Origin: a virus | DNA: 38,515 nucleotides | Strand: one strand, 5' to 3' | IMG/VR virus record: IMGVR_UViG_3300020202_000162 | Span: 1 to 38,515 of that record | Shown here: one piece after another, positions 3,062-36,500 of the stretch | How the letters are laid out: each line of letters begins with the position of its first letter | How positions within the stretch are numbered: the stretch's first letter is position 1 | The notes under the pieces: model-generated | The model's database searches: none | Seen by the model: only the letters and a program-made list of their open reading frames with translations | What the model was told of the DNA's origin: nothing | Made by a program: the position numbers and the translations under genes

Positions 3062-3517
3062 TCAAGGCATGCTGTACTCGATCAAGGCTCGGCGGCTCCG
3101 AGCGTCTCGGCGCGCTGATCGTCGGCTGAGCGCCGTCGAGCTCCGCAGGATGGCCCGGACCACCTCGGGATGGAGGCGCGTCGCCAAGGCCACCTCGCGG
3201 ACGGTCCACCATCCACCGCGGGCGAGACAGGCAGCGACTGCCTCCCGGCGGATGGCAATGTCGCAGAGCGGCCTCACCTCGAGCACCGGCGGCAGGCTCG
3301 CAGTCGACGGCGGAGAGGGACGTAACTCGATCGACCCCGAGGGGATAACCACCGGCTCCCGTACCGCGACTGGCCGAGGCGGCGGCTCGATCCACCCGGG
3401 CGGCCGGAGGCATGCCGGCACCGGGCCCTGCGCGAGGTCCAGCCGGATCTCGTGCTCCCGAAGCTCCGCCCGCGTCATCCGGGCGTGAAGTCGCTGGCCC
3501 GTCTGGACGCTGATCAT
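3062..3517 (-). CDS. Putative phage DNA-binding protein with C-terminal winged helix
   Basis: 151 residues from ATG 3517; an internal ATG at 3478 is an alternative start. The middle is Pro-rich and probably a linker. Residues about 105-140 read as a helix-turn-helix: an Ala/Arg helix, then WWTVREVALATRLHPEVV, then a recognition helix. The C-terminus is strongly basic. A DNA-binding role, perhaps as an early regulator, is inferred from this motif alone. It lies between the Lar-like gene and the small coiled-coil gene. Confidence 0.55.
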   Translation of the reverse strand: MISVQTGQRLHARMTRAELREHEIRLDLAQGPVPACLRPPGWIEPPPRPVAVREPVVIPSGSIELRPSPPSTASLPPVLEVRPLCDIAIRREAVAACLARGGWWTVREVALATRLHPEVVRAILRSSTALSRRSARRDARSRRALIEYSMP

Positions 3518-3776: not shown

Positions 3777-3946
3777 AGCCCCACCCCCCCAATCCGTCCC
3801 TTCACCGGCTGCCACGGCTCACCAGGGCGGGGCTCGATGGCCGGCGGCAGGGTGGTCTCCCGCCGCTCCTCCTTACAGGCCGCGCAGAGGCGGTCTCCGT
3901 CGCCGTACACGGGGAACAAGAGGTGGCCGCAGCGCTGGCAGGTCAC
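3773..3946 (-). CDS. 57-residue zinc-ribbon protein
   Basis: GTG 3946 overlaps the stop of the upstream gene, and its own TGA overlaps the GTG of the Lar-like gene, so it is linked at both ends. The protein starts MTCQRCGH and has a second pair, CAAC, around residues 21-24. These form a four-Cys zinc ribbon, followed by a Pro/Glu-rich tail. No family is recognised. It is one of several mini zinc ribbons in this operon. Confidence 0.65.
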   Translation of the reverse strand: MTCQRCGHLLFPVYGDGDRLCAACKEERRETTLPPAIEPRPGEPWQPVKGRIGGVGL

Positions 3947-4635
3947 GACTTGCCCCCCATGTCTGCCTGTTCCAGCGCCAGCCGAGCGATCCGCCGAGCC
4001 GAAGCGTACATCTCCCCGCGATGCGCGGCATCATTCGGCCCGGTAGGGTTCGTCAGCCGATCGTCTGGAAGGTTCCCGCCCAAAGCGACGATCGAGCGCA
4101 GAGCGGCAATGCACGAAGGGGGCGCCTGTTCAGCCTCCGCCCGCCCCCCGAAGATCTCGCCGAGCCGCTCCAGGAAGGGCTCGGCATCAAGGACATCGTG
4201 ATGTTTCGTTCGATCCAGTGGGTCGCTATGAACGGTGTACCGCAGCTCCTCCACCAGCGCCACGACCTCCTTCAGCGCCCTGCGATATCCCTCCTCATGC
4301 TCGTCCGCGATCCGTTCGCACTTCAGGGCATCTCGGTCCCGGTCGATCGCGTCGGCAAGCCTACTGAACCGACCCGGCAGCGATCCTTGCGGCGGGAGAG
4401 ACGATTGCTCATAACGTCGACCAAACTCACGCAGCCGATCCCCGAATCGCGGTTCGCTCGAAGGCGGCGGGGGCGGGTTGACCGGCTTGGCCGGCTCACC
4501 GCTGGTCGCTCCGCGCGTGATGTCCCACTCCGGGCAGAGACTGTCGGGATCGGGCGGGCCCGCCGGGTTGCCGTAGCCCTCCGCCTCGGCGTCAGCCGGG
4601 TCGCCGTCTAGCATGGTGTTGCATTGCTCAGACAC
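3943..4635 (-). CDS. Phage early protein of unknown function, mostly helical
   Basis: 230 residues. GTG 4635 was chosen because GGAGG precedes it by 6 bases; it lies 2 bases past the stop of the exonuclease gene. The first 65 residues are acidic and Pro-rich, likely disordered. Residues about 75-200 are rich in Arg, Glu, Ala and Leu and probably alpha-helical. No catalytic motif or known family is recognised. The stop overlaps the GTG of the following zinc-ribbon gene. Confidence 0.65.
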   Translation of the reverse strand: MSEQCNTMLDGDPADAEAEGYGNPAGPPDPDSLCPEWDITRGATSGEPAKPVNPPPPPSSEPRFGDRLREFGRRYEQSSLPPQGSLPGRFSRLADAIDRDRDALKCERIADEHEEGYRRALKEVVALVEELRYTVHSDPLDRTKHHDVLDAEPFLERLGEIFGGRAEAEQAPPSCIAALRSIVALGGNLPDDRLTNPTGPNDAAHRGEMYASARRIARLALEQADMGGKS

Positions 4636-5278
4636 GGGCCACCTCCTGCACATCGGGGCTTAGCTCGGTCGCCGTCCGCCACCCGAGCCAGAACCGCTTC
4701 GAGAGAGCCTTCGCTACCTGAACGGTCGCCCGGACATCAGCGAGTGCGTCGTGTGCCTCGATGTGCTCGATACCCAGCCACTCGCAAAGGCTGCCGAGCT
4801 TGTGGTCCTTCGGCTGCATCGGAGCGATGAAGGAAGCCCACCGAGCCAGGGAGACCGTGTCCAGCGGCTCGAAGCAGGCAGCGGGGCAGAACTCCCCGGC
4901 GGTCTTGTACCACGACACCAGGAACGGGCAGTCGAAGCGCTCCACATTGTGGCCGGCGAGGCGGGCCACCGTGTACGTCTTCCCACGGGGCGAGGTCTTC
5001 TCCATGGTCGCGTAAGTCCGGAAGAAGGAGGAGAGGAGAGACATCGCGCGGCCTGGAGGGATGGCCTCGGTCATCCAGGTTCCAGCGTCGTAGATGTTTG
5101 CCGCCAGCGCTTCCGGCTCGGCCTTCGCGTGATCAAACTGGAGCTTCATCTCCAGCGAGTCGATCTCCCGGAAGGCCCCATCAACCGCAAGGGCAGCAAT
5201 TTGGATGATCGGATGCCGAAGCGGATCCAGCCCGCCGGTTTCCAGATCGAAAAAGACGATGCGGTCGGCTGGCTTCAT
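4628..5278 (-). CDS. DnaQ-like 3'-5' exonuclease (DEDDh)
   Basis: 216 residues. Exo I is FFDLETGG (D11, E13), Exo II is AGHNVERFD (D116), and Exo III is AHDALADVRAT (H176, D181). This is the complete DEDDh active-site set for metal-dependent 3'-5' hydrolysis. No polymerase domain is attached, so it is a stand-alone nuclease like those many phages encode for DNA turnover or proofreading in trans. The ATG overlaps the stop of the HTH gene. Length agrees with stand-alone family members of about 180-230 residues. Confidence 0.88.
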   Translation of the reverse strand: MKPADRIVFFDLETGGLDPLRHPIIQIAALAVDGAFREIDSLEMKLQFDHAKAEPEALAANIYDAGTWMTEAIPPGRAMSLLSSFFRTYATMEKTSPRGKTYTVARLAGHNVERFDCPFLVSWYKTAGEFCPAACFEPLDTVSLARWASFIAPMQPKDHKLGSLCEWLGIEHIEAHDALADVRATVQVAKALSKRFWLGWRTATELSPDVQEVARV

Positions 5279-8974: not shown

Positions 8975-9265
8975 TCAGGTCTTCACTTCCTCCGGGATTG
9001 GCGGCGGCTCTGACTTGTTGGACCTCGGGGGAGAGGGAAGGGAGGGGCGACCGGCAGGGCCCCACAGCGCCGTTCTCGTGGCGTCCCGTGCTCGTGCTGC
9101 GGCGAGCTCCAGGAGTACGTCTTCCCCCTCCCCGGCAAGCTGCTGCGTCTCAACTCCCGGCGTGTCGGCGAGGCGCCGTATGGCCCGCTGGAGATACTCG
9201 TCTAGTCGCTCGATGGTCGTGCGGGGAATGCGGGATTGGTCGTCGGTAGGGCGGGGGTCAGGCAA
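8975..9265 (-). CDS. Hypothetical helical protein with TTG start
   Basis: 96 residues. TTG 9265 chosen because GGAGG lies 6 bases upstream and the start sits inside the end of the DUF5131 gene, continuing the overlap pattern. The central part is helical, with IERLDEYLQRAIRRLAD and an Ala/Arg-rich helix. The C-terminus is Pro-rich. No family is recognised. It is the last gene of the right-hand minus operon. Upstream extension of this frame is antisense-like and not supported. Confidence 0.5.
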   Translation of the reverse strand: MPDPRPTDDQSRIPRTTIERLDEYLQRAIRRLADTPGVETQQLAGEGEDVLLELAAARARDATRTALWGPAGRPSLPSPPRSNKSEPPPIPEEVKT

Positions 9266-10244
9266 GGGACACCTCCGGCATTTCGCGGACTCGTAGGTCT
9301 TCCGGCCATTCGGCAGGATCGCCACCCTTCCGATCCTTGAGACGGATGGACCACATCCCCTGTAGGTCTTCTTTCTTCGTTCCCCACGGCCACATCTCCC
9401 CAGAAACCGCGCACCCATCCCAAACAGGCCCAGCGCCGAGCTGCTTGCCGAAGAACGCCACGCCTGCCGCTGCACACTGTTTGCGAATAGAGCGCATCCA
9501 GGAGATGTCCATCGGCCGAGCGCTGGGGCCGCTCTCGGCGCCGCAGATAACCCAGGAGATTCCGGAGAGATCGACTGCCCCCAGATCCTCGAGCAGCGGC
9601 TCTGCGGATACAAAGCGGACAGCAGCCGGCACCCCCCGAAGATGCCCAACGCGTTCGCCCCACTCCTGACGCCTCTCCGCCGAGACACCGAGCCAGACAT
9701 TCCTAAGGGGCCATGGCTGAATGGCAGCACGGTCTGTCTCCTCGGCGCCCATCCCCTGGGTTCGGGCATACCAAGCCACGGAGGCGCTCGGCTGCTCTTC
9801 GCCGATTTGCCAGTACTTTTTCCCGTCACTTCCGAGCCACGCAAACCAGCTCGGCAACCGCTCCGCCCGCTTCGTCAGAACTTGATGTGTGTGCTGCGGC
9901 GTCGCCGCCATCACGCCGAAGCATGCAGCAATATGCTCGTTCGGCACCCACGAACCGAACATATCCGTCATGTCACACCAGAAGTAGGTCGTCGGCGTCC
10001 GCCGGCGCAGTACCTCCTTAAGCTTCGAGACATCTAGGAAAGGCTCGACGAGCTCCCGCCCGCGCCCGTGTACGCCGCCGAATGGAGGAAGGCCGCGACG
10101 TGACTGAAAGCGGGAGCTATAGCAAAATGTGCATCCGCTCGATACCTTCTCGCAGAAGTGCCCAACCTTCGAGGGGTCGGACTTCAGGCGGGCGCGCAGA
10201 GGGTTGATGGTGTGGCCGGTCCATTCGATCGACGTGGCTCCCAT
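9258..10244 (-). CDS. DUF5131 family protein (phage Gp37/Gp68-like)
   Basis: 328 residues from ATG 10244, ATGA-coupled to the upstream gene. It opens with SIEWTGHTINP and has Cys31, Cys38 and Cys41 in the pattern CxxxxxxCxxC. It continues with TYFWCDMTDMFG, HTHQVLTKRAERLP and VSAEPLLEDLGAVDLSGISWVICGAESG. These are hallmark segments of DUF5131, a widespread phage and prophage family with a radical-SAM-like three-Cys cluster and unknown reaction. Length fits the family (about 230-350). Some members sit beside three-Cys-motif partner genes, but none is seen here. An RNA or base modification role is sometimes suggested but unproven. Confidence 0.88.
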   Translation of the reverse strand: MGATSIEWTGHTINPLRARLKSDPSKVGHFCEKVSSGCTFCYSSRFQSRRGLPPFGGVHGRGRELVEPFLDVSKLKEVLRRRTPTTYFWCDMTDMFGSWVPNEHIAACFGVMAATPQHTHQVLTKRAERLPSWFAWLGSDGKKYWQIGEEQPSASVAWYARTQGMGAEETDRAAIQPWPLRNVWLGVSAERRQEWGERVGHLRGVPAAVRFVSAEPLLEDLGAVDLSGISWVICGAESGPSARPMDISWMRSIRKQCAAAGVAFFGKQLGAGPVWDGCAVSGEMWPWGTKKEDLQGMWSIRLKDRKGGDPAEWPEDLRVREMPEVSLA

Positions 10245-10546
10245 CAATGCACCTTCTCTTCGGTGGTCTGGCAGTTGAGCAGAGCCGTCAGCGCCGGCCA
10301 CACCCGATCGATCTCGCCGCGGGACCGCAGCAGCAAGAGCGACTGAATGACCGCCGCGAGCTCCGCCTCGCCGTCTCGAGCGGCTGCCGCCCGAGCCAGA
10401 CCCAGCGCCTCGCCCGCGTCGATTTCGACGAGATTGTCCCAGTCGGGTGGGATGGTCTCGCGAGACGGATCATCCGGCTCGGCTCCAGCGCGCCAAGCAG
10501 CCACTGCTGCGGCGGCAATTCTTCGAGCACACTCTGAAATGCTCAT
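10244..10546 (-). CDS. Hypothetical helical early protein
   Basis: 100 residues with AGGAG upstream of ATG 10546. The N-terminus (SISECARRIAAAAVAAWRAG) and C-terminus (Leu/Ala-rich, IDRVWPALTALL) are helical, separated by an acidic loop. It resembles small phage proteins of unknown function located near recombination genes. It lies between the RusA gene (9-base gap) and DUF5131 (overlap). Confidence 0.6.
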   Translation of the reverse strand: MSISECARRIAAAAVAAWRAGAEPDDPSRETIPPDWDNLVEIDAGEALGLARAAAARDGEAELAAVIQSLLLLRSRGEIDRVWPALTALLNCQTTEEKVH

Positions 10547-16814: not shown

Positions 16815-17882
16815 ATGTCGAAAATCCAGGATCTCACAGCTGCTCTCGGCGAGGCGTGGGTCGAAAACACCCGTCGCGTCAAGGGCTGGAAGCCCCGGCA
16901 GGGGCCGCGCGACTACCTCACAGCCTCCAACCTTTCGGAGTGCGGGCGAGCCATGGCGCTCGATCTCCTGCACCCCGAGGACAACCCTCCCTTCGACGAC
17001 GACACCCTGGAGCGGTTCTACCGCGGAGACGACGCCGAGACCGCGAAGAACGCCCGCCTTCACCAGGTAGGCATGCTCTGCAGGCCACCATTCAAGGTTC
17101 ACGGGCAGCAGCGCGAAGTCGAGATCTTTGCCCGAGACGGCAAAACTCTTCTCATCCGCGGTAAAGTCGAGGGCACCCTGGAGTTCTATACGGAGCGACT
17201 GGAGATCGACTACGAGATCAAATCCGGCCAAGCGGTCGCGCACGTCGAGACTTTAGACGACATGCTTCGAGGGTACTGGACACGCAAATACGTCCGCCAG
17301 TTTGTCTCCTACCTCTACGCTCAGGTGCGCGGCGGCCGCGGCTCCGGCCTAGGCGTCTTCATCCTCGACCGGCCGGGCCTGCCGGTGCTCATTCCTCTCG
17401 ATCTTGCGGAGGACGGTCGGCTCCTGGAGCTCGCCGAGAGGACTCTCACCGCAGCGGAATGGGCGGTCGAGGCTCGCTTCGACGCTCGCGAGCTGCCGCC
17501 CTTTGCCACCGACCAGGGTCTCTGCCGACGCTGCGTCCATCTCGGGAAGAGTTGCCACCCTCCGATCGACTTCGGCCCTGGGGCTCACATCGACGATGAC
17601 CCCGTGGCGGCGGCCATGGTGGCGGAGTATCTCGAGACGAAGGAGCCCTCGACGCGCCACGAGCGGGCAAAGCGCTTCCTCTTCGGCGACGCGAAAAAAC
17701 CAGGCCGGTACCGCAGCCATCCGCTTGCCCTGGTGGCCGGAGAGTACATCGTCGAGGGAGAGTGGGGCCCTTACACCCGCTACGAGATCCCTGAAGAGAT
17801 CAAGGAGAAGCACAAGGTAGTCGACCCGAAAGGCCAGTGGAAGACGACGGTGACGAAGCTCGCGAGCACGGCGAAGGACTGA
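16815..17882 (+). CDS. PD-(D/E)XK exonuclease with Cas4/AddB-like Cys cluster
   Basis: 355 residues. The nuclease core is readable: GKVEG at 116-120, EIKSG with E134 and K136, and QxxxY at Q162-Y166. Cys43 (SECGRAM) and the trio Cys237, Cys240, Cys247 (CRRCVHLGKSC) match the four-Cys 4Fe-4S arrangement of Cas4, AddB and related RecB-family nucleases. In Cas4-type enzymes the cluster supports DNA binding and 5'-3' resection. Here it probably resects ends for the annealing protein encoded just upstream. No CRISPR adaptation genes (cas1, cas2) are seen, so a Cas4 role in spacer acquisition is unlikely. Confidence 0.8.
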   Translation: MSKIQDLTAALGEAWVENTRRVKGWKPRQGPRDYLTASNLSECGRAMALDLLHPEDNPPFDDDTLERFYRGDDAETAKNARLHQVGMLCRPPFKVHGQQREVEIFARDGKTLLIRGKVEGTLEFYTERLEIDYEIKSGQAVAHVETLDDMLRGYWTRKYVRQFVSYLYAQVRGGRGSGLGVFILDRPGLPVLIPLDLAEDGRLLELAERTLTAAEWAVEARFDARELPPFATDQGLCRRCVHLGKSCHPPIDFGPGAHIDDDPVAAAMVAEYLETKEPSTRHERAKRFLFGDAKKPGRYRSHPLALVAGEYIVEGEWGPYTRYEIPEEIKEKHKVVDPKGQWKTTVTKLASTAKD

Positions 17883-19465: not shown

Positions 19466-20087
19466 TGTGCCAGAGATCGCGCTGAACCGGGGGTGGACTG
19501 ATGACCAGCAGCAGGACTACGCTCACCGCTACCAAACTCAGGAGAGGCGCATGGAGAGTGCGGGAGTGCCCCCCCGATACCTCAGGTACACTTGGCAGAC
19601 CTGGCCGCGCAAGAAGCGGCAGGATCTCCTCGACTGGCCCAGCAAACCGGGGCCGGAGGGGCGGATCCCGTGGACGGTCTTCGCGTACGGGCCCAAGGGT
19701 TCCGGCAAGACGCACATCACTACCGCCGTGCTTGCTGATTTGCTCTGCCGGGGATGGACCTGCAAGTGGTTCGAAGTTGCGGAGGCGATCGAGGAGGTCA
19801 AGGCGGAGTTCGCCGACGAAGTCTACCAGGGCAGGACCATGAAAGCGCTCAAGGAGACTCCCATAATCCTGCTCGACGACTTGGGGGCCGAGCGTCTCAC
19901 CGATTTCGCGGCCGACACAGTGGCGCAGGTCCTGAGGTATCGTTACAACCGGGAGAAGTTCACCTTGGTCACTACGAACATGGAACTTGAGGAGCTGGAC
20001 TCGATTGACTCCCGCCTCGGGTCCCGGCTCGGCGGACGGGAGGCCCTCCAGATCAACTTTGCAGGACAACGGGACTGGCGCCTATGA
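19329..20087 (+). CDS. DnaC-like helicase loader ATPase
   Basis: 252 residues. ATG 19329 chosen because GGAGG lies 5 bases upstream; ATG 19440 is an alternative that would reduce overlap with the previous gene. The AAA+ core shows Walker A GPKGSGKT (121-128), Walker B IILLDDLG (179-186), a sensor-1 segment LVTTNMELEEL, and an Arg-finger-like SRLGSRLGG near the end. This is the DnaC/IstB-like order. Such proteins load the replicative helicase onto DNA opened by the initiator, which is encoded just upstream. No phage helicase is seen, so it probably recruits host DnaB. Confidence 0.85.
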   Translation: MVNSRLDALLQRLEAQLLPTPSDLPSSELDLKPPSGWMMTIRRRLDVPEIALNRGWTDDQQQDYAHRYQTQERRMESAGVPPRYLRYTWQTWPRKKRQDLLDWPSKPGPEGRIPWTVFAYGPKGSGKTHITTAVLADLLCRGWTCKWFEVAEAIEEVKAEFADEVYQGRTMKALKETPIILLDDLGAERLTDFAADTVAQVLRYRYNREKFTLVTTNMELEELDSIDSRLGSRLGGREALQINFAGQRDWRL

Positions 20088-21127
20088 ACGCTCCAGGCGG
20101 AGCAGGGGAGTCTGTGGTGAACTCCCAGGGCGCACATGGCGGCGCCATTACCTCAAGGGCAGAGATGAAAGCGACCCCACTCTTCCCCTGGTTTGGCTCC
20201 AAAAAGGACGTGGCGCGGGAGATCTGGGACCGGCTCGGGGATGTGCCCAACTTCGTAGACCCGTGCTGCGGATCTTGCGCAGTACCGCTCCTCCGCCCGC
20301 ATCCCGCGAAGACCATGACGTTGAACGATGCGGATGGCTTTCTGGTGAACTTCTTTCGGGCTGTGTCGATAGATCCGGAAAGCGTCGCGCATGAGGCAGA
20401 CTGGCCGGTGTCGGAGCTTGATCTCACCGCTCGGCATGCCTACCTCGTGAAGCGCATCCCGTGGCTGGTGGAGCGGCTCGAAGGAGATCCGTGGTGGTAT
20501 GACGCCCGCCTAGCCGGATGGTGGCTGTGGGGGCTTTGTGAGTGGATCGGGACCGGCTGGTGCACCGGTGATGGGCCGTGGGCGGAGGTGGGCGGGCGGA
20601 TCGTAAACATCAGGGAAGGGGAGCACCTCGGGGATGCCGGCCGCGGCATCAACCGCAAGATACCGCACCTCAGCACTGCCGGATCTGGAATCAACAGGGC
20701 GATAGACACGCGCAGGACTCTTGAAGCGGCGCGCGACCAGATTCGCGGAGCCCGGATTACGTGCGGTGATTGGCGGCGTCCGCTCTCTCCCGCCGTCACT
20801 TGGCGCCATGGGCCGACGGGGATTCTTCTTGATCCGCCATACCTGAGAGGCGAGATGTCATACGCGGGCGGCGGCGCAATCGCCGAAGATTGCGCCGCTT
20901 GGGCACGCGAGAACGGGGATAATCCTCTCCTTCGCGTCGCTCTCTGCGGCCACGAGGGGGACTATGATCTCCCGGGATGGGACGTGTTCCGTTGGAAGGG
21001 GCGGGGCGGATACGGCAACACAGGCGGCGAGGATGCCGAAGACAACCGCCACCGAGAGACGATCTGGTTCAGTCCTCACTGCCTGGGGAGTCGGCAGCCG
21101 AGCCTCTTCCCGAGAAGTTGTCGATGA
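20084..21127 (+). CDS. D12-class (Dam-like) N6-adenine DNA methyltransferase
   Basis: 347 residues from ATG 20084, overlapping the loader stop. FPWFGSKK (34-41) and FVDPCCGS (57-64) are the SAM-binding motif region, and DPPY (250-253) is the catalytic motif. The order fits D12-type (Dam/M.EcoRV) methylases that transfer methyl from SAM to adenine. A stretch with repeated ADxGRGINRKIP-like sequence lies in the middle. No partner endonuclease is seen. With Lar and the second methylase at 28880 it likely shields phage DNA from host restriction. The recognition sequence cannot be read from the protein. Confidence 0.88.
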   Translation: MNAPGGAGESVVNSQGAHGGAITSRAEMKATPLFPWFGSKKDVAREIWDRLGDVPNFVDPCCGSCAVPLLRPHPAKTMTLNDADGFLVNFFRAVSIDPESVAHEADWPVSELDLTARHAYLVKRIPWLVERLEGDPWWYDARLAGWWLWGLCEWIGTGWCTGDGPWAEVGGRIVNIREGEHLGDAGRGINRKIPHLSTAGSGINRAIDTRRTLEAARDQIRGARITCGDWRRPLSPAVTWRHGPTGILLDPPYLRGEMSYAGGGAIAEDCAAWARENGDNPLLRVALCGHEGDYDLPGWDVFRWKGRGGYGNTGGEDAEDNRHRETIWFSPHCLGSRQPSLFPRSCR

Positions 21128-21672
21128 AGCCGCGCCAGCGAAAGTCCCGGGGGAAACGAAAGGACCGAAAAAACTTCGATCAGGCTTTGGTCGACGCGGG
21201 TAAGTGCGGACGCCCTACTCGCAATCCGGCCGCAAAGGGCGACTACTGCACTCTGGACGCCGGCTGGGGAACTGACCACTATGGCGCCGGCGCCTGTCGC
21301 AAGCACGGGGGAAATAATCCGATCACTCACGGAGGCTACTCGGAAACGGCGCGCGAGCGGCTCGGTCCTTCCTTCGAGCGTTTCAAAAACGATCCGAATA
21401 TTGCTTCGGTAGACGGCGAGGTCGCGATCCTGCGAGGCATCGTGGAGAAGGCGATCGAGGAAGGTAAGACTGGGGAGGATGTGGCTGGCTTGGCGGAAAG
21501 GGTCGTGCGCGCTGTCGAGACTATGGGCAAGATCAAGCAGAAGTTTGGAATCACGATGGAAACTTTGAATTACGTCACGTCCCGAATGGGCCTGGTTGTC
21601 GAGGAGCATGTTAAAGACCCCACAGTTCTCGCTCGAATCGAAGCCGGCTGGAAGAACATCGTTCTCCCTTGA
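21124..21672 (+). CDS. terS: Putative small terminase subunit with Cys/His motif
   Basis: 182 residues from ATG 21124 (ATGA overlap). The basic N-terminus is followed by C28 (KCGRPTRNP), C42 and then DHYGAGACRKHGG with C58 and H61. This Cys/His pattern is common in phage proteins located directly before the large terminase. The remainder is helical, with a long coiled-coil-like region (about 95-180). Known small terminases bind DNA ends and stimulate the large subunit. Assignment rests on position and motif type and is moderately secure. Confidence 0.6.
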   Translation: MKPRQRKSRGKRKDRKNFDQALVDAGKCGRPTRNPAAKGDYCTLDAGWGTDHYGAGACRKHGGNNPITHGGYSETARERLGPSFERFKNDPNIASVDGEVAILRGIVEKAIEEGKTGEDVAGLAERVVRAVETMGKIKQKFGITMETLNYVTSRMGLVVEEHVKDPTVLARIEAGWKNIVLP

Positions 21673-23896
21673 CGGCGCAATCGCCAGCCTGACTCGCGGT
21701 CGAAATCTGATCGCCGGTCCGCTGCTCGCCGCGCTCTTCCCGGGGCAGGCGCGGATCCCGGCGACCCGGGGCCGAGAGCTGCTCCTCGCTGCCGAGCCCC
21801 GTTCCGGAGCCTCCCACCTCCTTCGGTCGCTGGCGCTCCTTCGTGCCGCTGAGCAGGAGAGGGTGGCGGTGGTCCTCGCAGCTCGTGACGAGAAGGCCCT
21901 CCGCGAGGAGCACAAGGAAGGGGAGGGCGGGATCTGGCGCATGCTCGAGGCCCTGCCGCCGGGGACGATCACCTGGCAGCCAGGAGGCATCGGGAAGCTC
22001 GCCAACGGAAGCACCCTCCAGCTCACCACCTGGGAGGGAGCGGCGAAGCGGGCGGCTGATGTCCTGCTGATCGACGACGCCGACGAGTTGCCTCTCCCTG
22101 CCTTTCAGCAGCTCCGGGAGAAGGCGCTCCAGGGCCCGGTCCGGAGTGATCTCCCCCGGCTGATCATGGTCTCGAAGCGGCCGGAGCAGGGCTGGATCCG
22201 CGAGCACTGGCGAGCGCTGAACGGCGAGGGAGTGCGGGCCGAGCTCAGGGCGAGCGATCTACCGGAGCACCTCCGCCGGGAGGTCGCGCTCGCGGCTCCG
22301 GAGAGCTTCGGGGACTGGATCTCGCGAGTGCTGCCCTCCTTCCGCTGGTACCCGCATGTCACGCTCATGGTCGAGACGGCGCAGCGACTGATCGATGGCG
22401 AGATCACCCGGTTGCTCGTATCGGCGCCGCCGCGGTACATGAAGAGTCTTGTGTGGGCTCGGCTTCTGCCTGCGTATCACCTCGCGATGCGGCCGGACGA
22501 ATGGGTCGGCGTGGTGTCTTCTTCGGCGACGCTTGCGGAGATCATGAGCGCAGACGCTCGAGGGTTTTACCGCGAGGCCGGACAGCCGTTCAGGAACGAT
22601 TCCCAGGACAAAGCCCTATGGCGGACACCGAAGGGCGGCGGCATGTGGGCGCGCGGTGTAGGCGGTTGGATTCTCGGTGTGGGAATGGATCTCGGTATCG
22701 TTGACGATCCTTTCGCGACACCAGAGGAAGCCATGAAGCCGAGCGTACAGGAGTTCGTCGAGCGGTACTTCTGGGACACGTTCATGGGTCGAAAAGAGCT
22801 GCGGGAGGTCGGCGAGCGGCCCGTCTCGATTGTGGTCAACCACCAGGCGCTGGCGGAGGGGGATCTTCGCGGGCGAATTCTGCGGCGCGAGCTCGAAGCC
22901 AAGCTCCCGAGCGAGGGTTGGCACGTACTGACGCTCGCGGCGCTCAAACGGGCCCGAAAAGAGCCCTATCCGCCGTCGGTCACGATCATCCCCGAGGTCG
23001 CACGCTGGGACGGAGAGGAGGCAGAACCCCGGGAGCGCAGACTCGGGGAGCCGCTCTGCCCCCAGCTCCTGGACCAGGACGTGGAGGGGCTCTTGCGCTT
23101 GGAGGCGAGCAACGCTCGGCTCTTCGCCGCCACCCACCAGCAGGAGCCGGAGAGCGATAGCGGAGGCGGAATGTTCGAACGGTGGTGGTGGAGTTTCATC
23201 TGTCCGCGGGAAAGGGTCGAAGCAGTGGCCAGTCTCCCGTTGACCGAGCAGCTCGCCGTACTTATGGCGTCCGGCGACATCCCGGTCCTGCACCGGGAGG
23301 CGAGAGCGTGGGACATCGCGGCGAGCCTGAAGGGAGAGGGAGACGCGTCAGCCTCGGTCCGTGGAGGTGTTGCGCTTCGGAACGGCCGGCGAGAGATCGT
23401 CTTCACCGATGCCCGGGAGTACTTTTATCCCGGTCATGCAGTGCCGGACCTGATCTACGAGACGGCGATGCAGGACGGGCCAGGCGTGGACGTGATTCTG
23501 CCGGCTGAGCCCGCAGCTGCGGGGAAGATCCTGATCGGCAGTGCCACCGGCTCAAGCCCGGGACTCCTCCAGACACGGCTCGAAGCCGCAGGCTTTCGCG
23601 TTGTAGTCGTGCCAGTGACCGGCTCGAAACGAGTACGCGCAACGCCGCATGCTGGCGCGGCCGCGCCGCTGCGGAACGCGGAGGGTAAGGAGGATGGGCG
23701 GATGGGACGGTGCTTCCTCTTGCCGGCCATCGAGCCTCTGCCGGACCGAACGGACGGCTGGACCTGGAATACGTTATTCTGCGAGAGGCATCAGAAGTTT
23801 GACGGTGTGACCAAGCCCCTCGACGTTGCCGACGCTGCGTCGTCCCTGTTCTCCGATCTCGATTCGACCCCATTCTTGACTTCCGGGATTTGGTAG
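21608..23896 (+). CDS. terL: Large terminase subunit with extra N-terminal ATPase-like module
   Basis: 762 residues. ATG 21608 is provisional; GAGGAG sits too close and an upstream TTG at 21596 lacks a site. The C-terminal two thirds is a normal large terminase: Walker A-like APPRYMKS (273-280), motor motif around VVSSSATLAEIMSADARGFY, Walker B GIVDDPF (363-369), and a nuclease Asp in RAWDIAASLKGEGD (about residue 560). The N-terminal 210 residues resemble a second terminase ATPase: AAEPRSGASH at 61-70, NGSTLQLTTWEGA, then VLLIDDADEL at 152-161, and LIMVSKRPEQGWIREHW. The Walker A lacks Lys. The usual length is 400-560 residues, so this is an apparent tandem ATPase fusion. Confidence 0.85.
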   Translation: MLKTPQFSLESKPAGRTSFSLDGAIASLTRGRNLIAGPLLAALFPGQARIPATRGRELLLAAEPRSGASHLLRSLALLRAAEQERVAVVLAARDEKALREEHKEGEGGIWRMLEALPPGTITWQPGGIGKLANGSTLQLTTWEGAAKRAADVLLIDDADELPLPAFQQLREKALQGPVRSDLPRLIMVSKRPEQGWIREHWRALNGEGVRAELRASDLPEHLRREVALAAPESFGDWISRVLPSFRWYPHVTLMVETAQRLIDGEITRLLVSAPPRYMKSLVWARLLPAYHLAMRPDEWVGVVSSSATLAEIMSADARGFYREAGQPFRNDSQDKALWRTPKGGGMWARGVGGWILGVGMDLGIVDDPFATPEEAMKPSVQEFVERYFWDTFMGRKELREVGERPVSIVVNHQALAEGDLRGRILRRELEAKLPSEGWHVLTLAALKRARKEPYPPSVTIIPEVARWDGEEAEPRERRLGEPLCPQLLDQDVEGLLRLEASNARLFAATHQQEPESDSGGGMFERWWWSFICPRERVEAVASLPLTEQLAVLMASGDIPVLHREARAWDIAASLKGEGDASASVRGGVALRNGRREIVFTDAREYFYPGHAVPDLIYETAMQDGPGVDVILPAEPAAAGKILIGSATGSSPGLLQTRLEAAGFRVVVVPVTGSKRVRATPHAGAAAPLRNAEGKEDGRMGRCFLLPAIEPLPDRTDGWTWNTLFCERHQKFDGVTKPLDVADAASSLFSDLDSTPFLTSGIW

Positions 23897-28650: not shown

Positions 28651-28883
28651 TCCCCGCGTTCCTCGCCGCCGGCTGGTTCCTGGTGACCCTGGGGCTCTGG
28701 GGCGGGTGCGGTCGGCCCTGGTGGGTCTGGCCGATGTCGGTGGGGCTCGGGCTCCTGGTGGTCGGTGGGGCGTACGGGTGGGCAGCGGTGACTCTGACCG
28801 CAGCGGGGAAGGTGGGCGAGGAGACGGAGCACCCCAGCAGGATTCCGGAACCAGGGGCTGGGCCGCGGAGGGTCGGGGGGTGA
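28542..28883 (+). CDS. Two-TM membrane protein
   Basis: 113 residues from ATG 28542, overlapping the previous gene by 109 bases. Hydrophobic segments at about residues 36-53 and 61-82 contain many Trp and Gly (GCGRPWWVWPMSVGLGL). Charged, Pro-rich C-terminal tail. No known family; a membrane-located accessory protein. Confidence 0.55.
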   Translation: MQPAEPAAQALGRPITEGSMELVEQLRGAPPVDSRLIPAFLAAGWFLVTLGLWGGCGRPWWVWPMSVGLGLLVVGGAYGWAAVTLTAAGKVGEETEHPSRIPEPGAGPRRVGG

Positions 28884-29398
28884 GCGAAGCCGCTCGCGTC
28901 TTAAAGTTCGCCACCAAGGCCACCGATGTCTGGCGGACGCCCCCTACGCTATGGGGTCCGCTCAACAACGAGTTTCACTTCGTCCTCGACGCCGCCTGCG
29001 AGAGCCACAACCAACTCGCGCCGCACGGTCTTTGCGCTGATCGCGGAGACGACGCGCTTCTGATGCCCTGGCACACCTACGGCGGAGCGGTATGGTGCAA
29101 TCCGCCATACTCGCGGATTCGCCCCTGGATGGAGCAGGGCATTCGAGCGGGACGGGTGGTTCCGGTCGTCATGCTCATCCCGGCGGACACGTCTACCCGC
29201 TGGTGGTTCGAATGCGTCGCGCATCTGGCCGCGGAGGTGCGCTTTTTGGTCGGACGGGTACGCTTCCGGGGAGTAGACGGGGAACCTTATCAGCGAAGGA
29301 CCGGAGGAGGAAGCGGACTGAGCACGCCGAGCGCCCTGGTCATCTACCGGCCTTCGGGTGGCCCACCCCGGTATTCCTACGTCGAGACGCCCCGTTGA
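28880..29398 (+). CDS. dam: Phage N6-adenine DNA methyltransferase (Dam, phage type)
   Basis: 172 residues from GTG 28880 (GTGA overlap). WRTPPTLWGPLNNEFHFVLD contains the SAM-binding region, and GDDALLMPW is followed by CNPPYSR with the catalytic NPPY at 74-77. This compact order is that of phage-type DNA adenine methylases of about 160-180 residues (PF05869-like). It is a different family from the D12 methylase at 20084. Protection from restriction is the likely role. It directly precedes the portal gene and overlaps its start. Confidence 0.85.
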   Translation: MSEAARVLKFATKATDVWRTPPTLWGPLNNEFHFVLDAACESHNQLAPHGLCADRGDDALLMPWHTYGGAVWCNPPYSRIRPWMEQGIRAGRVVPVVMLIPADTSTRWWFECVAHLAAEVRFLVGRVRFRGVDGEPYQRRTGGGSGLSTPSALVIYRPSGGPPRYSYVETPR

Positions 29399-30816
29399 AA
29401 GTCTCTCTTACCGCAGCCCTGGCCTCCGCAGCCGGGGACATCCAGAAGCGGGCGAGCGCCACCCCTTCCCGCGAGATCCTCTCTCCAGCGCAGTTCGGCG
29501 GCTCCGGCTACAGCTACGGCGGTGGGCAGGCAGTCCAGACCGACTGGGACGAGAGGCGGGCGATCCAGGACGGATACCGATCGAGCACCTGGCCGTTCGC
29601 CTGCATGGACCGGCTTCAGGGCGCGGGCAGCTCTGTCCCCTGGGTGGTCTACGAGCGTCGTGGCCGACGCCGGCGGGAATGGGAGCGGCAGGACGGGCAC
29701 GATTACGAGGTCTGCATTGAGTACCCGATGCCCGGCCTGCTTTCCCGCCAGACTCTGATCTCGGGCATGATTCTCTCCCTCTGCTGCGGGGGCAACTCCC
29801 TCTCTCGAGTGATCTATGTCCGGCGTGGCGGCGAGGAGGTCCCTGTCGAGCTCCAGCCGATGTCGACCGCACTGTGGCGACCGGTGCCCGTCGGCGACTT
29901 TGACAGGCCGGAGCTCGTGACGAACCGGGAAGGTCGGCAGCAGTGGGCGAAGTGGATCAAGGGCTACAAGCGGACGGACCGGAGCGATCCACCCATCGAG
30001 CCCTGGCGGGTTGTTCACGCGCAGAAGCTCGACCCGGGCGTCTGGATCTGGGGCATGAGCCCCATGCGGCCAATTGCTCCCATCGTGGATATGGACCGAG
30101 CCATGGTCGCCTGGAACGCCCGCATGCCGCAGCAGAACATGGTGCCCGCCGGCGCCTTCATCGACTCCAGAGTTAGCACCAACGAACAGGCCAGAGAAAA
30201 GGCTATAGCGCTCCGCACCCGCCTGAACGACCCTTCGTTGTCCGGGGCCCCCTTCGTCTTCGGTCCGGGCACGACGTGGCTGCCCATGGGGCACACCATG
30301 GTCGAGGCAGACTGGAACGCGAGTCGCGAATTCAACCGCGACGAGGTCTGCGCCGCCTTCAATATCTCTCCGACGCTCTTCATCAGCGATGCGAAGTACG
30401 CCAACATGGAGCAGGGTCGAGCGCACCTCCTGGAGAACGGGGCACGAGACTTGCTTGAGCTCCTCCAAGACGCGTTCAACACCGCCTTGGTGCCGGACAG
30501 CCGCCGGCGGGAGGTGTACATCGCCTACGACCTGTCGGACGTCCCCGGTGTGCGTGACACCCTTCCAGCGCGTCTCGAGAGTCACGAGAGGGCAGTGCGC
30601 AGCGGCATCCCAGTGAACAGCTCGATCTATCTCCACGGCCTAGATGTGCAGCCGGTCGAAGGCGGCGATCAGCCGTTGGTCCCAGCCACGCTGGTACCCC
30701 TCCGGCACCTCATCGAGGAGCCTGCGGCGTCCCCTGCGGACGATGGGGAGGATGACGGTTCACTTCCCGTCCCATCGTCGGGATTGACAAAGGAGCCCGA
30801 ACAGACAGACGATTAG
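29395..30816 (+). CDS. HK97-type portal protein
   Basis: 473 residues from TTG 29395, which overlaps the methylase stop. The sequence has portal features: WPFACMDRLQGAGSSVPWVVYER (clip/stem entry), LSLCCGGNSLSRVIY, EPWRVVHAQKLDPGVWIWGMSPM, and a central helical region with EFNRDEVCAAFNISPTLF. A C-terminal acidic tail ends in TDD. Length fits the family (about 400-500). The portal forms the dodecameric ring through which DNA is packaged by the terminase at 21.1-23.9 kb. It is separated from TerL by 5.5 kb of accessory genes. Confidence 0.85.
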   Translation: MKVSLTAALASAAGDIQKRASATPSREILSPAQFGGSGYSYGGGQAVQTDWDERRAIQDGYRSSTWPFACMDRLQGAGSSVPWVVYERRGRRRREWERQDGHDYEVCIEYPMPGLLSRQTLISGMILSLCCGGNSLSRVIYVRRGGEEVPVELQPMSTALWRPVPVGDFDRPELVTNREGRQQWAKWIKGYKRTDRSDPPIEPWRVVHAQKLDPGVWIWGMSPMRPIAPIVDMDRAMVAWNARMPQQNMVPAGAFIDSRVSTNEQAREKAIALRTRLNDPSLSGAPFVFGPGTTWLPMGHTMVEADWNASREFNRDEVCAAFNISPTLFISDAKYANMEQGRAHLLENGARDLLELLQDAFNTALVPDSRRREVYIAYDLSDVPGVRDTLPARLESHERAVRSGIPVNSSIYLHGLDVQPVEGGDQPLVPATLVPLRHLIEEPAASPADDGEDDGSLPVPSSGLTKEPEQTDD

Positions 30817-32643: not shown

Positions 32644-33377
32644 AACTACTGCGGGTTCGCTGCGAGCTTGCAACGCCAGCCATCGTGGACGCCGGTCCCG
32701 TCCACCTTGACGGCATTCTCTGGGCCGCTTCGGCGGAGCACAGGGAAGCCTTTCGCGTCGAGGTGCCACGCCTCCCGGTTTGGAGCGTCACCCTCTTCGG
32801 CGAGACGGTGGCACTGGCGTCCGCGCTGCTCCCCGGGCACTACCGGCACCAGCAAGTCTCTCTGGTAAAACGTCGGGACGGCATCGATGTCCAGCATCTG
32901 GGGGGTCGGCTCCATCGTGGGCTCGGTCCAGGCAAGGACAAGCTGCGCTACGCGCTGGCGATCGACGGAACCCTGGAATGGGTCGTAGTAGCGGGCCGTC
33001 GCCGGCCGGTACTGAAAATGCTCCGCCGCGTCCTCGCGCTTGGTCGCGACCTCCGGAGCGGACACGGAAGGGTCAGAGAGTGGGATGTGCTGGAGGACCC
33101 GGAGGAGGATTTGGCGTCTGTACTGGTCAGCCCGGACAGTGTGTCGCGCCGCAATCTTCCTCCGCGCTGGTGCTCCTCGTCTTCCGCCGTGAGCCGCGGA
33201 GCGCTCCGTCCGCCATACTGGAATCAGCACGTCGATATCGTGCCGGCCGGTGCTGTCGTGCGGCTAGATCCGGCAGTGCTTTACGAGGTGCGGAAAGGAG
33301 TTGAGATTGCCCCAAGGCCTCGACCTGCGGACATACGCCGCGCTCTGCGGGACGCGCCGATTCAGACGGAAGATTGA
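32640..33377 (+). CDS. csf3: Csf3-like RAMP (Cas5-family subunit)
   Basis: 245 residues from GTG 32640 (GTGA overlap). N-terminal RAMP strand with LATPAIVDAGPVHLDGILWAA (10-30), which matches the ATPxxL...PxHLDGILA pattern of Csf3. A conserved Gly-rich loop, LGRDLRSGHGRV, lies at 134-145. Cas5/Csf3 caps the end of the Cas7 filament and contacts the RNA 5' handle. No catalytic residues are visible, as expected of Csf3. The CysH-like gene begins 71 bases before its end. Confidence 0.7.
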   Translation: MKLLRVRCELATPAIVDAGPVHLDGILWAASAEHREAFRVEVPRLPVWSVTLFGETVALASALLPGHYRHQQVSLVKRRDGIDVQHLGGRLHRGLGPGKDKLRYALAIDGTLEWVVVAGRRRPVLKMLRRVLALGRDLRSGHGRVREWDVLEDPEEDLASVLVSPDSVSRRNLPPRWCSSSSAVSRGALRPPYWNQHVDIVPAGAVVRLDPAVLYEVRKGVEIAPRPRPADIRRALRDAPIQTED

Positions 33378-34047
33378 TCTCGCGCGACAGTGCGTAGAGT
33401 CTTGGCTCGCTCAGTGCGCACGACCGGCGGTGAGCTGCGGAGGAGGCAAAGACTCGACAGCTCTTCTCCAACTGGTTCACGCCGTCGAGCCATCCGTACC
33501 GGTCTACTGCGCAGATCCGCCCAACCCGTTGCCGGATCGTGCTCCTCATCTCCGCCGCCTGGAGATGGCCGACGGATCGTCATTTTGCCGCGTTCCATAC
33601 CCGTGGGACGTCGAGGCCGTGCTGAACGGCAGGGAGGCCTACCCGGCACTCCTGAAGATCCGCCGACTAGAGGAGCGCCTCGCGTTGGACGAGGTCGATG
33701 GCGTGGCGCTCGGAATCCGGGCGGAGGAGAGTTATGGGCGCTGCATGAACTTCCGTGTCCGCGGGCCTCTCTACCTCCATTCTTCGGGCAGGTGGGTCTG
33801 CACACCGATTGCGTCATGGACCGCGGAGGAGGTCGTCGGCTTCGTGCTCGCGCATGACTGCCTTCCGCTTAATCCCGTATACTTCAAGCTGGAACTAGCG
33901 CCGGCGCTCAATCACCTGAGGGATGGCACCTGGTTTCCCCGCGAGATAGCTGATGGTCAGGGTTACGAGGATTGGTTGCGCTTCCATTACCCCGAACTGG
34001 GCGAGTTGTACCGAAGAGCTGCCAACTTGACACCTCGACGCGCATAG
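33307..34047 (+). CDS. cysH: CysH-like PP-loop (PAPS reductase family) protein of the csf cassette
   Basis: 246 residues from TTG 33307; AAGGAG lies 6 bases upstream. PP-loop SCGGGKDS at 43-50, followed by VDGVALGIRAEESYGRC and a second motif block, PIASWTAEEVVGFVL, and LNPVYFKLEL. PAPS reductases and related sulfurtransferases use this ATP-pyrophosphatase motif to activate substrates. A CysH-like gene is the recognised accessory of type IV-B CRISPR-Cas loci, with unknown reaction. It overlaps csf3 by 71 bases, so it is expressed with it. Sulfate assimilation is unlikely, since no other such gene is present. Confidence 0.75.
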   Translation: MPQGLDLRTYAALCGTRRFRRKIDLARQCVESWLAQCARPAVSCGGGKDSTALLQLVHAVEPSVPVYCADPPNPLPDRAPHLRRLEMADGSSFCRVPYPWDVEAVLNGREAYPALLKIRRLEERLALDEVDGVALGIRAEESYGRCMNFRVRGPLYLHSSGRWVCTPIASWTAEEVVGFVLAHDCLPLNPVYFKLELAPALNHLRDGTWFPREIADGQGYEDWLRFHYPELGELYRRAANLTPRRA

Positions 34048-34064
34048 ACGAGACTGGATGCGAC

Positions 34065-34865
34065 ATGCCCCGCTTCGTCCCGATCGAGGTCAAGCTCTCC
34101 GCTGACGCCGTCAGCGTCTCAAAACGCGAGGTGACATTCTACGGCAACGCGTTCAACAACCGCGACCGCCAAGGGCACCGAATCCTCCCTGGCGCATGGA
34201 CCAAGACCATAGCGCAGCAGCTCCCCAAGGGGGAGATCAAGCACTTCCGGAACCACGAAGTCAGCATTGGCCCAATGCGCGAGCTGGTACAAGACTCCTA
34301 CGGCCTCCTGTGCACGGGGTACTGCTCGAAGACCCGGGCCGGCGACGAGTACCTGGAGCAGGCGCTGGACGGCACCCTGACACACGCCTCCGTCTATGCC
34401 AAGATCGTTCGCGAGCGCGCAGAGTACGTCACCGAGGACGATCCCGTGACCGGACAGAAGGTGGAGACGCTCAACATCGGGGAGGCCATCCTGCTTGAGG
34501 CCGGTCTTGTCGACCTCGCCCCAGCCAACAATCTCGCGACCCTGGTGGCGGTGAAGAACCTCGCCGGGTCAGACTTCTACGACCTTCTCACTGATCTCGA
34601 CTACATCGTGAAGGACTTCGCCCTCTCGTGCAGCACCGATAGACGGCTGACTGCGGAGGAAAGGCGAGTAGCGAAAGCTCTGCTCGGGCTCCGCAAGGTG
34701 CTCGATGACCAGGGCGATATCCTCAAGGCACTGCTGGCGCCGGGAGACGTCACCCAGACCTCCGGGTCTGCGCCGAGTCTAGCCACCCCCGCACATGCCG
34801 AGACGCAGCCCGACCTGACCGCCATCCTGGAGAGCATCCGGGGGCGTGGTCAGATCCACCTGTAA
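34065..34865 (+). CDS. HK97-type prohead protease
   Basis: 266 residues from ATG 34065. Starts with VPIEVKLSADAVSVSKREVTF and has the FRNHEVSIGPM histidine (H64) and THASVYAKI with Ser109, typical of the prohead protease active site. A long acidic, low-complexity tail follows residue 190. The protease trims the capsid scaffold during maturation. Family length is usually about 200-280. It is the normal neighbour of portal and capsid, separated from the portal by the csf cassette. Confidence 0.85.
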   Translation: MPRFVPIEVKLSADAVSVSKREVTFYGNAFNNRDRQGHRILPGAWTKTIAQQLPKGEIKHFRNHEVSIGPMRELVQDSYGLLCTGYCSKTRAGDEYLEQALDGTLTHASVYAKIVRERAEYVTEDDPVTGQKVETLNIGEAILLEAGLVDLAPANNLATLVAVKNLAGSDFYDLLTDLDYIVKDFALSCSTDRRLTAEERRVAKALLGLRKVLDDQGDILKALLAPGDVTQTSGSAPSLATPAHAETQPDLTAILESIRGRGQIHL

Positions 34866-34901: not shown

Positions 34902-36500
34902 ATGCCCACCGTCGAAGAGATCCAGACGGAAATCGTCAAATCCAACGCCGCGGTCAACGAGACGCTCAAGGCGATCAAGACCCAGCTCGACAACCACGAG
35001 GCCGCCATCGCCGAGATGAAGAAGAATGGTGACCGGCCGGAGGCGACCGCCGAGCACGCCGAGACCATGAAGAAGCTCACCGCCACGCTGGATGGAGCGC
35101 AGACCTCTTTGGCTGCTGCACAGGCCGAGCTTGTGGCCCTCAAGGCGTCAACCCAGCACGACATCGAGGAGCTGCAAAAGGCGATGCAGCGGAGCGGCAA
35201 TGGTGGCGCGGGCGGCGAGGCGTTCAAGACCCTCGGAGAACGAGCCGTCGAGCTGATCCAGGAGAACGAGGCCGCCTTCCGTGACTACGCCAATGGTAGG
35301 GCCCCAAATGCGCGTTTGCTGCCTCACGTGACCTTGAAGTCCTTCGGCGACGAGCCGATCTTCCGCGGATACGAACCGAGTGACCTGAAGAAAGCTCTTC
35401 AGACGAACGCCACGACCAATTTCATCGCTCCCTACCAGATCCCCGGATACATCCCGCTCCGCCGGCGCCGTCTCCGGATGCGGGATCTTATCCCCATCAT
35501 TCCGGCGCCCGGCGGCGGCGAGATCCGCTATGTCCGGCAGACCGGCTTCGCTCCGACTGCTGCGCCCTCGTCGGTCGTCAGCATCACCCAAACCGGAGGC
35601 CTTGCGACCGCAACCGTTACCGGCCACGGGTGGGAGGATCACGACCGCATCCGAATCGCTGGCGCGAACCAAGCTGGTTATAACGGCGATTTCTACATCA
35701 AGGTGGTGGACGCCAATACGTTCACCTTCACGGTCCCGTCGGGAACGGTGAGTCCGGCCACCGGAACCATCACCGCCTTCCGGATGAACAACTATGGTGC
35801 TGCCGGTTGGGTGGCCGAGGGCGCGACGAAACCCGGCGCCCAGATGTTCTTCGAAGAGCGGACGGCGCGGGTGCAGACGCTCGCCCACCACATGAAGGTC
35901 ACTCGGCAGGTGCTCGCCGACATGCCGGGGCTCCAGAACAACATCAACACCGACGGCATTTACGGCCTCCTACGGGCCGAGGATACCGGGATCCTGTATG
36001 GTTCTGGCACCGGCGCCGAGATGCAGGGCATCCTCACAGACCCGGGCCGGCAGCAGTACAAGTGGAGCGAGGGGAAGACGAACGACACGAAAGTGAAAGC
36101 GATCCGCCGGTCGCGGACCTTGGTCGAGATGGCGGACGGCGAAGCCTCGGGCTGCGTCCTTCACCCCACCGTGTGGGAGGACATCGAGCTCGAAACCGGG
36201 AGCGACGAGCATTACATCTGGGTGAACCGGATGAACGGCCTCAACCCGGACGGTGAGGAGATCTGGCGGATGCCGCTCGTGCTCACCCGCGCGATCAAGG
36301 CGGAGACCTGGCTGGTGGGGGCCTTCGCTCAGGCGACCTCGCTCTACGACCGGGAGCAAGCCAATGTTCGCTGGAGCGATTCGAACGAGGACGACTTCAT
36401 CAAGAACTTGATGACGGCACTCTTCGAGGAGCGGATCGCCCAAGCCATCCGCCACCCAGAGCTGCTGGTCGAGGGAACCTTCGACAGTGCCCCGGCCTAG
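34902..36500 (+). CDS. HK97-type major capsid protein with inserted Ig/FCCH-like domain
   Basis: 532 residues from ATG 34902. Residues 1-98 form a delta-type coiled-coil scaffold, likely cleaved by the protease upstream. The HK97 fold follows: LPHVTLKSFGDEPIFRG, KALQTNATTNFIAPYQIPGYIPL, then WVAEGATKPGAQM, TRQVLADMPGL and RAEDTGILYGSGTGAEMQGIL. Residues about 224-293 are an insertion with VSITQTGGLATATVTGHGW, IAGANQAGYNGDFYIKVVD and NTFTFTVPSGT. It resembles FCCH/Ig-like modules of phage surface proteins. It lies near the E-loop region and probably decorates the capsid surface. The family is typically 300-420 residues long. Confidence 0.88.
   Translation: MPTVEEIQTEIVKSNAAVNETLKAIKTQLDNHEAAIAEMKKNGDRPEATAEHAETMKKLTATLDGAQTSLAAAQAELVALKASTQHDIEELQKAMQRSGNGGAGGEAFKTLGERAVELIQENEAAFRDYANGRAPNARLLPHVTLKSFGDEPIFRGYEPSDLKKALQTNATTNFIAPYQIPGYIPLRRRRLRMRDLIPIIPAPGGGEIRYVRQTGFAPTAAPSSVVSITQTGGLATATVTGHGWEDHDRIRIAGANQAGYNGDFYIKVVDANTFTFTVPSGTVSPATGTITAFRMNNYGAAGWVAEGATKPGAQMFFEERTARVQTLAHHMKVTRQVLADMPGLQNNINTDGIYGLLRAEDTGILYGSGTGAEMQGILTDPGRQQYKWSEGKTNDTKVKAIRRSRTLVEMADGEASGCVLHPTVWEDIELETGSDEHYIWVNRMNGLNPDGEEIWRMPLVLTRAIKAETWLVGAFAQATSLYDREQANVRWSDSNEDDFIKNLMTALFEERIAQAIRHPELLVEGTFDSAPA

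Follow-up and report, generated by a model that had tools for sequence, protein, structure and literature searches.

A phage large terminase in which a conserved, probably inactive ATPase-like module precedes a second ATPase module and a nuclease

The window analysed here is the whole IMG/VR record IMGVR_UViG_3300020202_000162 with a length of 38,515 bases. The TerS, TerL, portal, protease and capsid genes described next are encoded on its plus strand. A small terminase (TerS) gene at 21115–21672 (phrog_9231, terminase small subunit, E 1.5e-4) is followed by a large terminase (TerL) gene at 21608–23896, a single open reading frame of 762 amino acids. According to the list of open reading frames, the 3' end of the TerS gene and the start of the TerL gene share 65 bases. 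The genes for the portal protein (29092–30816; PF04860, E 1e-32; 54–55% identical in L012 and L011), the prohead S78 protease (33972–34865; PF04586, phrog_80) and the HK97-fold major capsid protein (34902–36500; PF05065, phrog_10) are all located downstream of the TerL gene. Translation of TerL starts at ATG 21608 or, alternatively, at TTG 21596, because there is no in-frame ATG, GTG or TTG between 21608 and the first module of the protein. Residues 1 to ~42 are without counterpart in the relatives described below.

Several other genes of the window are reported here in their own right. Upstream of a DnaC-like loader, the gene at 16815–17882 gave a weak match (E 0.0025) to phrog_1990, a family of exonucleases with a Cas4 domain. 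The terminase region is flanked by two different adenine methyltransferase genes at 20084–21127 and 28865–29398, of the D12 class and the Dam class, and a phosphoadenosine phosphosulfate reductase-like gene (33301–34047; phrog_2302, E 2e-9) lies within the head operon, after the portal gene and before the protease gene, and overlaps the start of the protease reading frame. A DUF5131 protein (phrog_2045) is encoded on the minus strand at 9258–10301, distant from the terminase. In the related contig L008, a DUF5131 protein 38% identical to the window copy is encoded at 3479–2610, directly downstream of TerL and on the opposite strand. Thus, the position of this gene relative to TerL differs between the two.

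The TerL reading frame comprises an N-terminal ATPase-like module (N-module; residues 43–215, 21734–22252), a second ATPase module (residues 235–450, 22310–22957) and a nuclease domain (residues 530–762, 23195–23893). The original prediction, made from the letters of the sequence, had described an unusually long large terminase with an additional, degenerate ATPase module. The reading frame and all motifs that it quoted are present, namely EPRSGAS (residues 63–69), NGSTLQL (133–139), IDDADEL (155–161) and WIREHW (196–201) in the first module and APPRYMKS (273–280) and GIVDDPF (363–369) in the second. The combination of a P-loop-like motif, NGS and DD was found in none of 100 shuffles of the window. 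Also the unusual length is real: the 17 single-module relatives used for comparison have 446–674 amino acids, and a scan with the N-terminal region revealed two further IMG/VR contigs encoding the N-module, L007 and L008, which share the tandem layout over residues 43–760 with 57–59% identity. In both contigs, genes for portal, protease and capsid come after the tandem TerL in the same order and with 47–57% identity. We rejected an assembly artefact, since the layout occurs in three independent contigs.

Proteins of this tandem form seem to be rare: when 2.9 million viral contigs (IMG/VR) and about 85,000 genomes (GTDB) were scanned with degenerate-DNA and peptide patterns, only L007 and L008 were returned, with the restriction that such pattern scans overlook diverged relatives. 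In a tblastn search with the whole protein no phage or plasmid record reached 80% query cover, and the N-module searched by tblastn against 50,697 phage records gave noise only. The open-access literature that we searched contained no tandem-ATPase or pseudo-ATPase large terminase. A long N-terminal extension in front of the ATPase is also present in the TerL of Escherichia phage 4HA13 (L337, 346–2370, 674 amino acids); hhalign detected no similarity between this extension and the N-module. On the L007 and L008 contigs, which are perhaps partial, a search for TerS homologues yielded nothing save one weak match to the window TerS at G002:17672 on the L008 contig. In L007, the region upstream of the tandem TerL (about 3900–4953) holds no recognised TerS, and minus-strand open reading frames face TerL.

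In a scan against the PHROGs profiles, residues 223–594 matched the phrog_38 terminase large subunit with an E-value of 8e-34, and the nuclease part was matched by other TerL families including phrog_979. When the second ATPase and the nuclease were compared by hhalign with 16 relatives, they aligned over about 440 columns with E 1e-52 and probability 100. Judged by its profile match, the 762-residue protein is a large terminase of the phrog_38 type. We call it a variant, because it has lost two arginines, Arg381 and Arg414, that are otherwise invariant in the family. Members such as the TerLs of Acetobacter phage phiAO1, Caudoviricetes sp. vir524 and Bradyrhizobium phage BDU-MI-1 resemble the tandem proteins in ATPase and nuclease but have a single ATPase module without an N-module and keep Ser377, Arg381 and Arg414.

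The second module has preserved the ATP-gripping lysine, the P-loop arginine and the Walker B acids. Fifteen columns are invariant across the 17 single-module relatives, and the tandem proteins retain 12 of them, including, in all three, Lys279, Asp366, Asp367, Asp419 and Asp569. The PPRxxKS, DDP and QQxP motifs and the nuclease aspartates are all retained. In the P-loop APPRYMKS (22424–22447) Lys279 is kept and the Gly before the Lys is replaced by Met, Tyr or Phe; in the second Walker B motif LGIVDD (residues 362–367, 22691–22708) both acids are kept, the Asp in the second position being normal across the phrog_38 family. The RNase H-type nuclease acids Asp569 and Asp742 are retained in the tandem TerLs as well. 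The second ATPase has dN/dS values of 0.21–0.32 in the three tandem pairs. The second module probably binds and hydrolyses ATP.

Nevertheless, the description of this module as a conventional ATPase in the original prediction has to be abandoned. Three residues that are conserved in all 17 single-module relatives are exchanged in all three tandem TerLs: in the segment KPSVQ (residues 377–381, 22736–22750) Ser377 is replaced by Lys and Arg381 by Gln, and in motif III (residues 409–423, 22832–22876) Arg414 of the [TQ]R pair is replaced by Ala. With only three tandem sequences known, such invariance inside the clade is weak evidence when taken for itself. In a leave-one-out comparison, the equally divergent TerLs of Dexdert, K50, Daka and 4HA13 (about 23–25% mean identity) keep Ser377, Arg381 and Arg414. 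The second module of the tandem clade also carries a new conserved arginine, Arg421, in the sequence DLRGR of motif III. The distance from the second Walker B acid to Arg381 is 14 residues. Nearly as many, 15 residues, separate the catalytic E143 of D6E TerL from its trans-arginine finger R158, which is indispensable (PMC5727402). From this spacing we infer that Arg381 may be the equivalent of R158; at its position the tandem protein has Gln.

In the N-module, the classic-terminase order of Q-motif, P-loop, NGS, Walker B and motif III is preserved while key catalytic residues are missing. The P-loop-like motif AEPRSGAS (residues 62–69, 21791–21814), aligned with the GKT of the T4 and HK97 types, has Ala68 at the position of the lysine, and EPR[SA]GAS is found in all three tandem TerLs. 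The NGS motif (residues 133–135, 22004–22012) aligns with the NGS of T4-type terminases. In the Walker B-like VLLIDD (residues 152–157, 22061–22078), Asp157 occupies the position of the catalytic Glu according to the alignments, again in all three. The motif III-like VSKRPEQGW (residues 188–196, 22169–22195), which reads V-S-x-R-P-x-x-G-W in the three sequences and is collinear with TTTPNG of T4 in a global alignment, lacks the Thr. Unlike the ATPases of T4 gp17 and HK97 TerL, with which it is collinear from Q-motif to motif III, the N-module has no nuclease of its own. Alanine substitutions K60A and E154A in HK97 TerL abolished both packaging and ATPase activity (PMC9410871). Since these residues match the positions changed here, the N-module, as a degenerate homologue of a classic terminase ATPase, probably lacks ATPase activity. 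The loss of the lysine weighs more in this argument, because TerLs of the phrog_38 family also normally have Asp in the second Walker B position. Three arginines of the N-module, R65 in the P-loop, R170 and R191, are invariant in the three sequences; they are not exactly at the canonical finger positions.

The N-module is a maintained domain under purifying selection and no drifting sequence, since dN/dS determined by the Nei-Gojobori method for residues 43–215 was below 0.45 in all comparisons (0.38, 0.44 and 0.16 in the three pairs, at a synonymous divergence of about 0.6–1.9). As a separate observation, the synonymous divergence of this segment (21734–22252) from L007 and L008 is 0.78–0.80 versus 1.4–1.9 elsewhere in TerL, and its GC content is above that of the rest in all three tandem TerLs. 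As each of the two modules is without some catalytic residues, one could also imagine that both have decayed, that the tandem protein is an inactive motor and that another, unrecognised protein supplies the energy for packaging. We regard this as very improbable: both modules are under purifying selection, the gene belongs to the head operon and retains its nuclease aspartates, and none of the three contigs, which are perhaps incomplete, encodes a second terminase of phrog_38 or phrog_2.

The descent of the N-module is less easily read from databases. The original prediction had suggested a profile scan for two terminase ATPase matches as a check. Such a scan did return phrog_38 for residues 223–594, but the first 227 residues had no significant match in Pfam, PHROGs, NCBIfam or PDB sequences; the best library match was Pfam AAA_22 with E 0.005, under the family cut-off. 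We rely on profile–profile comparison, which alone separates the N-modules from controls, a plain hmmsearch with a broad profile not doing so. Comparisons of single-sequence profiles were underpowered and returned short spurious matches. A profile of the three N-modules was aligned by hhalign with a classic profile of 71 terminase ATPases, consisting of T4 relatives and viral contigs with an IGTPKGRN motif III. It scored 38.0 (probability 70.8, 130 columns; P 3.8e-5 for that single comparison), while the reversed profile scored 16.0 and 199 column shuffles reached 27.0 at most. Undisputed TerLs scored 43.3 (HK97), 33.0 (lambda), 32.3 (T7) and 25.8 (P22) on the same profile. Against a T4-only profile the N-module scored 34.2, with a shuffle maximum of 20.2, and the global alignment with T4 is collinear across the whole domain (LFPGQ/LRDYQ, EPRSGAS/SRQLGKT, NGS, IDD/IDE and motif III). 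Based on these alignments, homology of the N-module to terminase ATPases is likely, and the degenerate terminase-type ATPase of the original prediction is supported.

Alternatively, the N-module could be a P-loop (ASCE) domain, for example a helicase-like one, that is not specifically derived from a terminase and was recruited as a DNA-binding accessory. Among 32 E. coli control proteins run against the T4-type profile, only Rep approached the score of the N-module (31.7); as an SF1 helicase it belongs to the same broad class. The near-match in Pfam, AAA_22, would fit such a domain as well. However, the N-module outscores Rep, rho and RhlB on the T4-type terminase profile, and directly compared with the single sequences of these three proteins it stays at background (16.6–20.3). 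NGS and the spacing from Walker B to motif III fit T4-type terminases, and the N-module stands in frame with a terminase in three phages. A non-terminase origin thus appears improbable to us. A full-length AlphaFold2 model calculated from the three sequences had a mean pLDDT of 37 and is unfit for claims about the fold; in its residues 71–180 (pLDDT about 43–63) the order of strands and helices is compatible with ASCE/RecA.

With regard to origin, duplication or fusion had been proposed. Against the phrog_38 family, represented by the 17 single-module relatives, the N-module scored 26.0, which is inside the shuffle range (maximum 27.9). A recent internal duplication is unlikely, as the N-module reaches 38.0 on the classic profile but only shuffle level against the family of its own second module. 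The Pro-Arg of its P-loop EPRSGAS is common to APPRYMKS of the second module. Fusion of a foreign module appears the better guess, because the profile of the N-module fits ATPases of the classic T4/HK97 type and does not fit the second module of the same protein. The idea that the N-module replaces the small terminase was dropped, as a TerS gene is encoded next door in this phage.

How could a lysine-less module and an arginine-poor module work together? We lean towards the view that the tandem protein is a working TerL with a two-module ATPase, in which the second module binds ATP, the first is dead and the two complement each other. The second module would bind and hydrolyse ATP. The dead N-module would pack onto it, within one subunit or between neighbours in the motor ring, and would do the activating or coupling for which the lost arginines had served. 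The arginine losses themselves are seen in the sequence; their substitution by the N-module is what we hypothesize. A shared catalytic cycle is the simplest reading, because it explains the co-occurrence: the N-module keeps arginines without the lysine and the second module shows the reverse. SF1/SF2 helicases contain two RecA-like domains, and the dead N-module would resemble the second of these or the inactive member of a degenerate pair of ABC ATPases. ABC exporters in which one of the ATP sites has degenerated (PMC7756269) likewise pair two related ATPase modules and retain catalysis in one; this is an analogy only. ABC exporters and SF1/SF2 helicases are unrelated machines, and we do not claim that the arrangement is homologous.

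The main competing explanation is that the dead N-module has a docking or regulatory function only, by binding the portal, TerS or DNA, and that the arginine losses are compensated elsewhere. Its N-terminal placement and its conservation would suit such a role, and the new conserved Arg421 in DLRGR could compensate. Moreover, the loss of Arg381 need not demand a substitute, because some TerLs function without a classical trans-arginine finger, as found for HK97 (PMC9410871). This explanation leaves unaccounted for that the arginine losses coincide with the extra module, in three of three tandem proteins versus none of 17 relatives, and we consider it rather unlikely. Within the complementary two-module reading, we tentatively propose a composite motor with a split site, to which the second module may contribute Walker A and B, and the first module, which lacks the lysine, the arginine or coupling function; we give this a fair minority share of our belief. 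In such a ring, catalytic and non-catalytic modules would alternate instead of identical modules.

Phage packaging motors are taken as homomeric rings with one ATPase module per subunit, and the source of the activating arginine, whether in cis, in trans or neither, is disputed among T4, P74-26, D6E and HK97. An extra module without its lysine next to an active module without its arginines looks as if the two functions had been separated in evolution. The tandem TerL would allow the finger question to be tested module by module within one protein.
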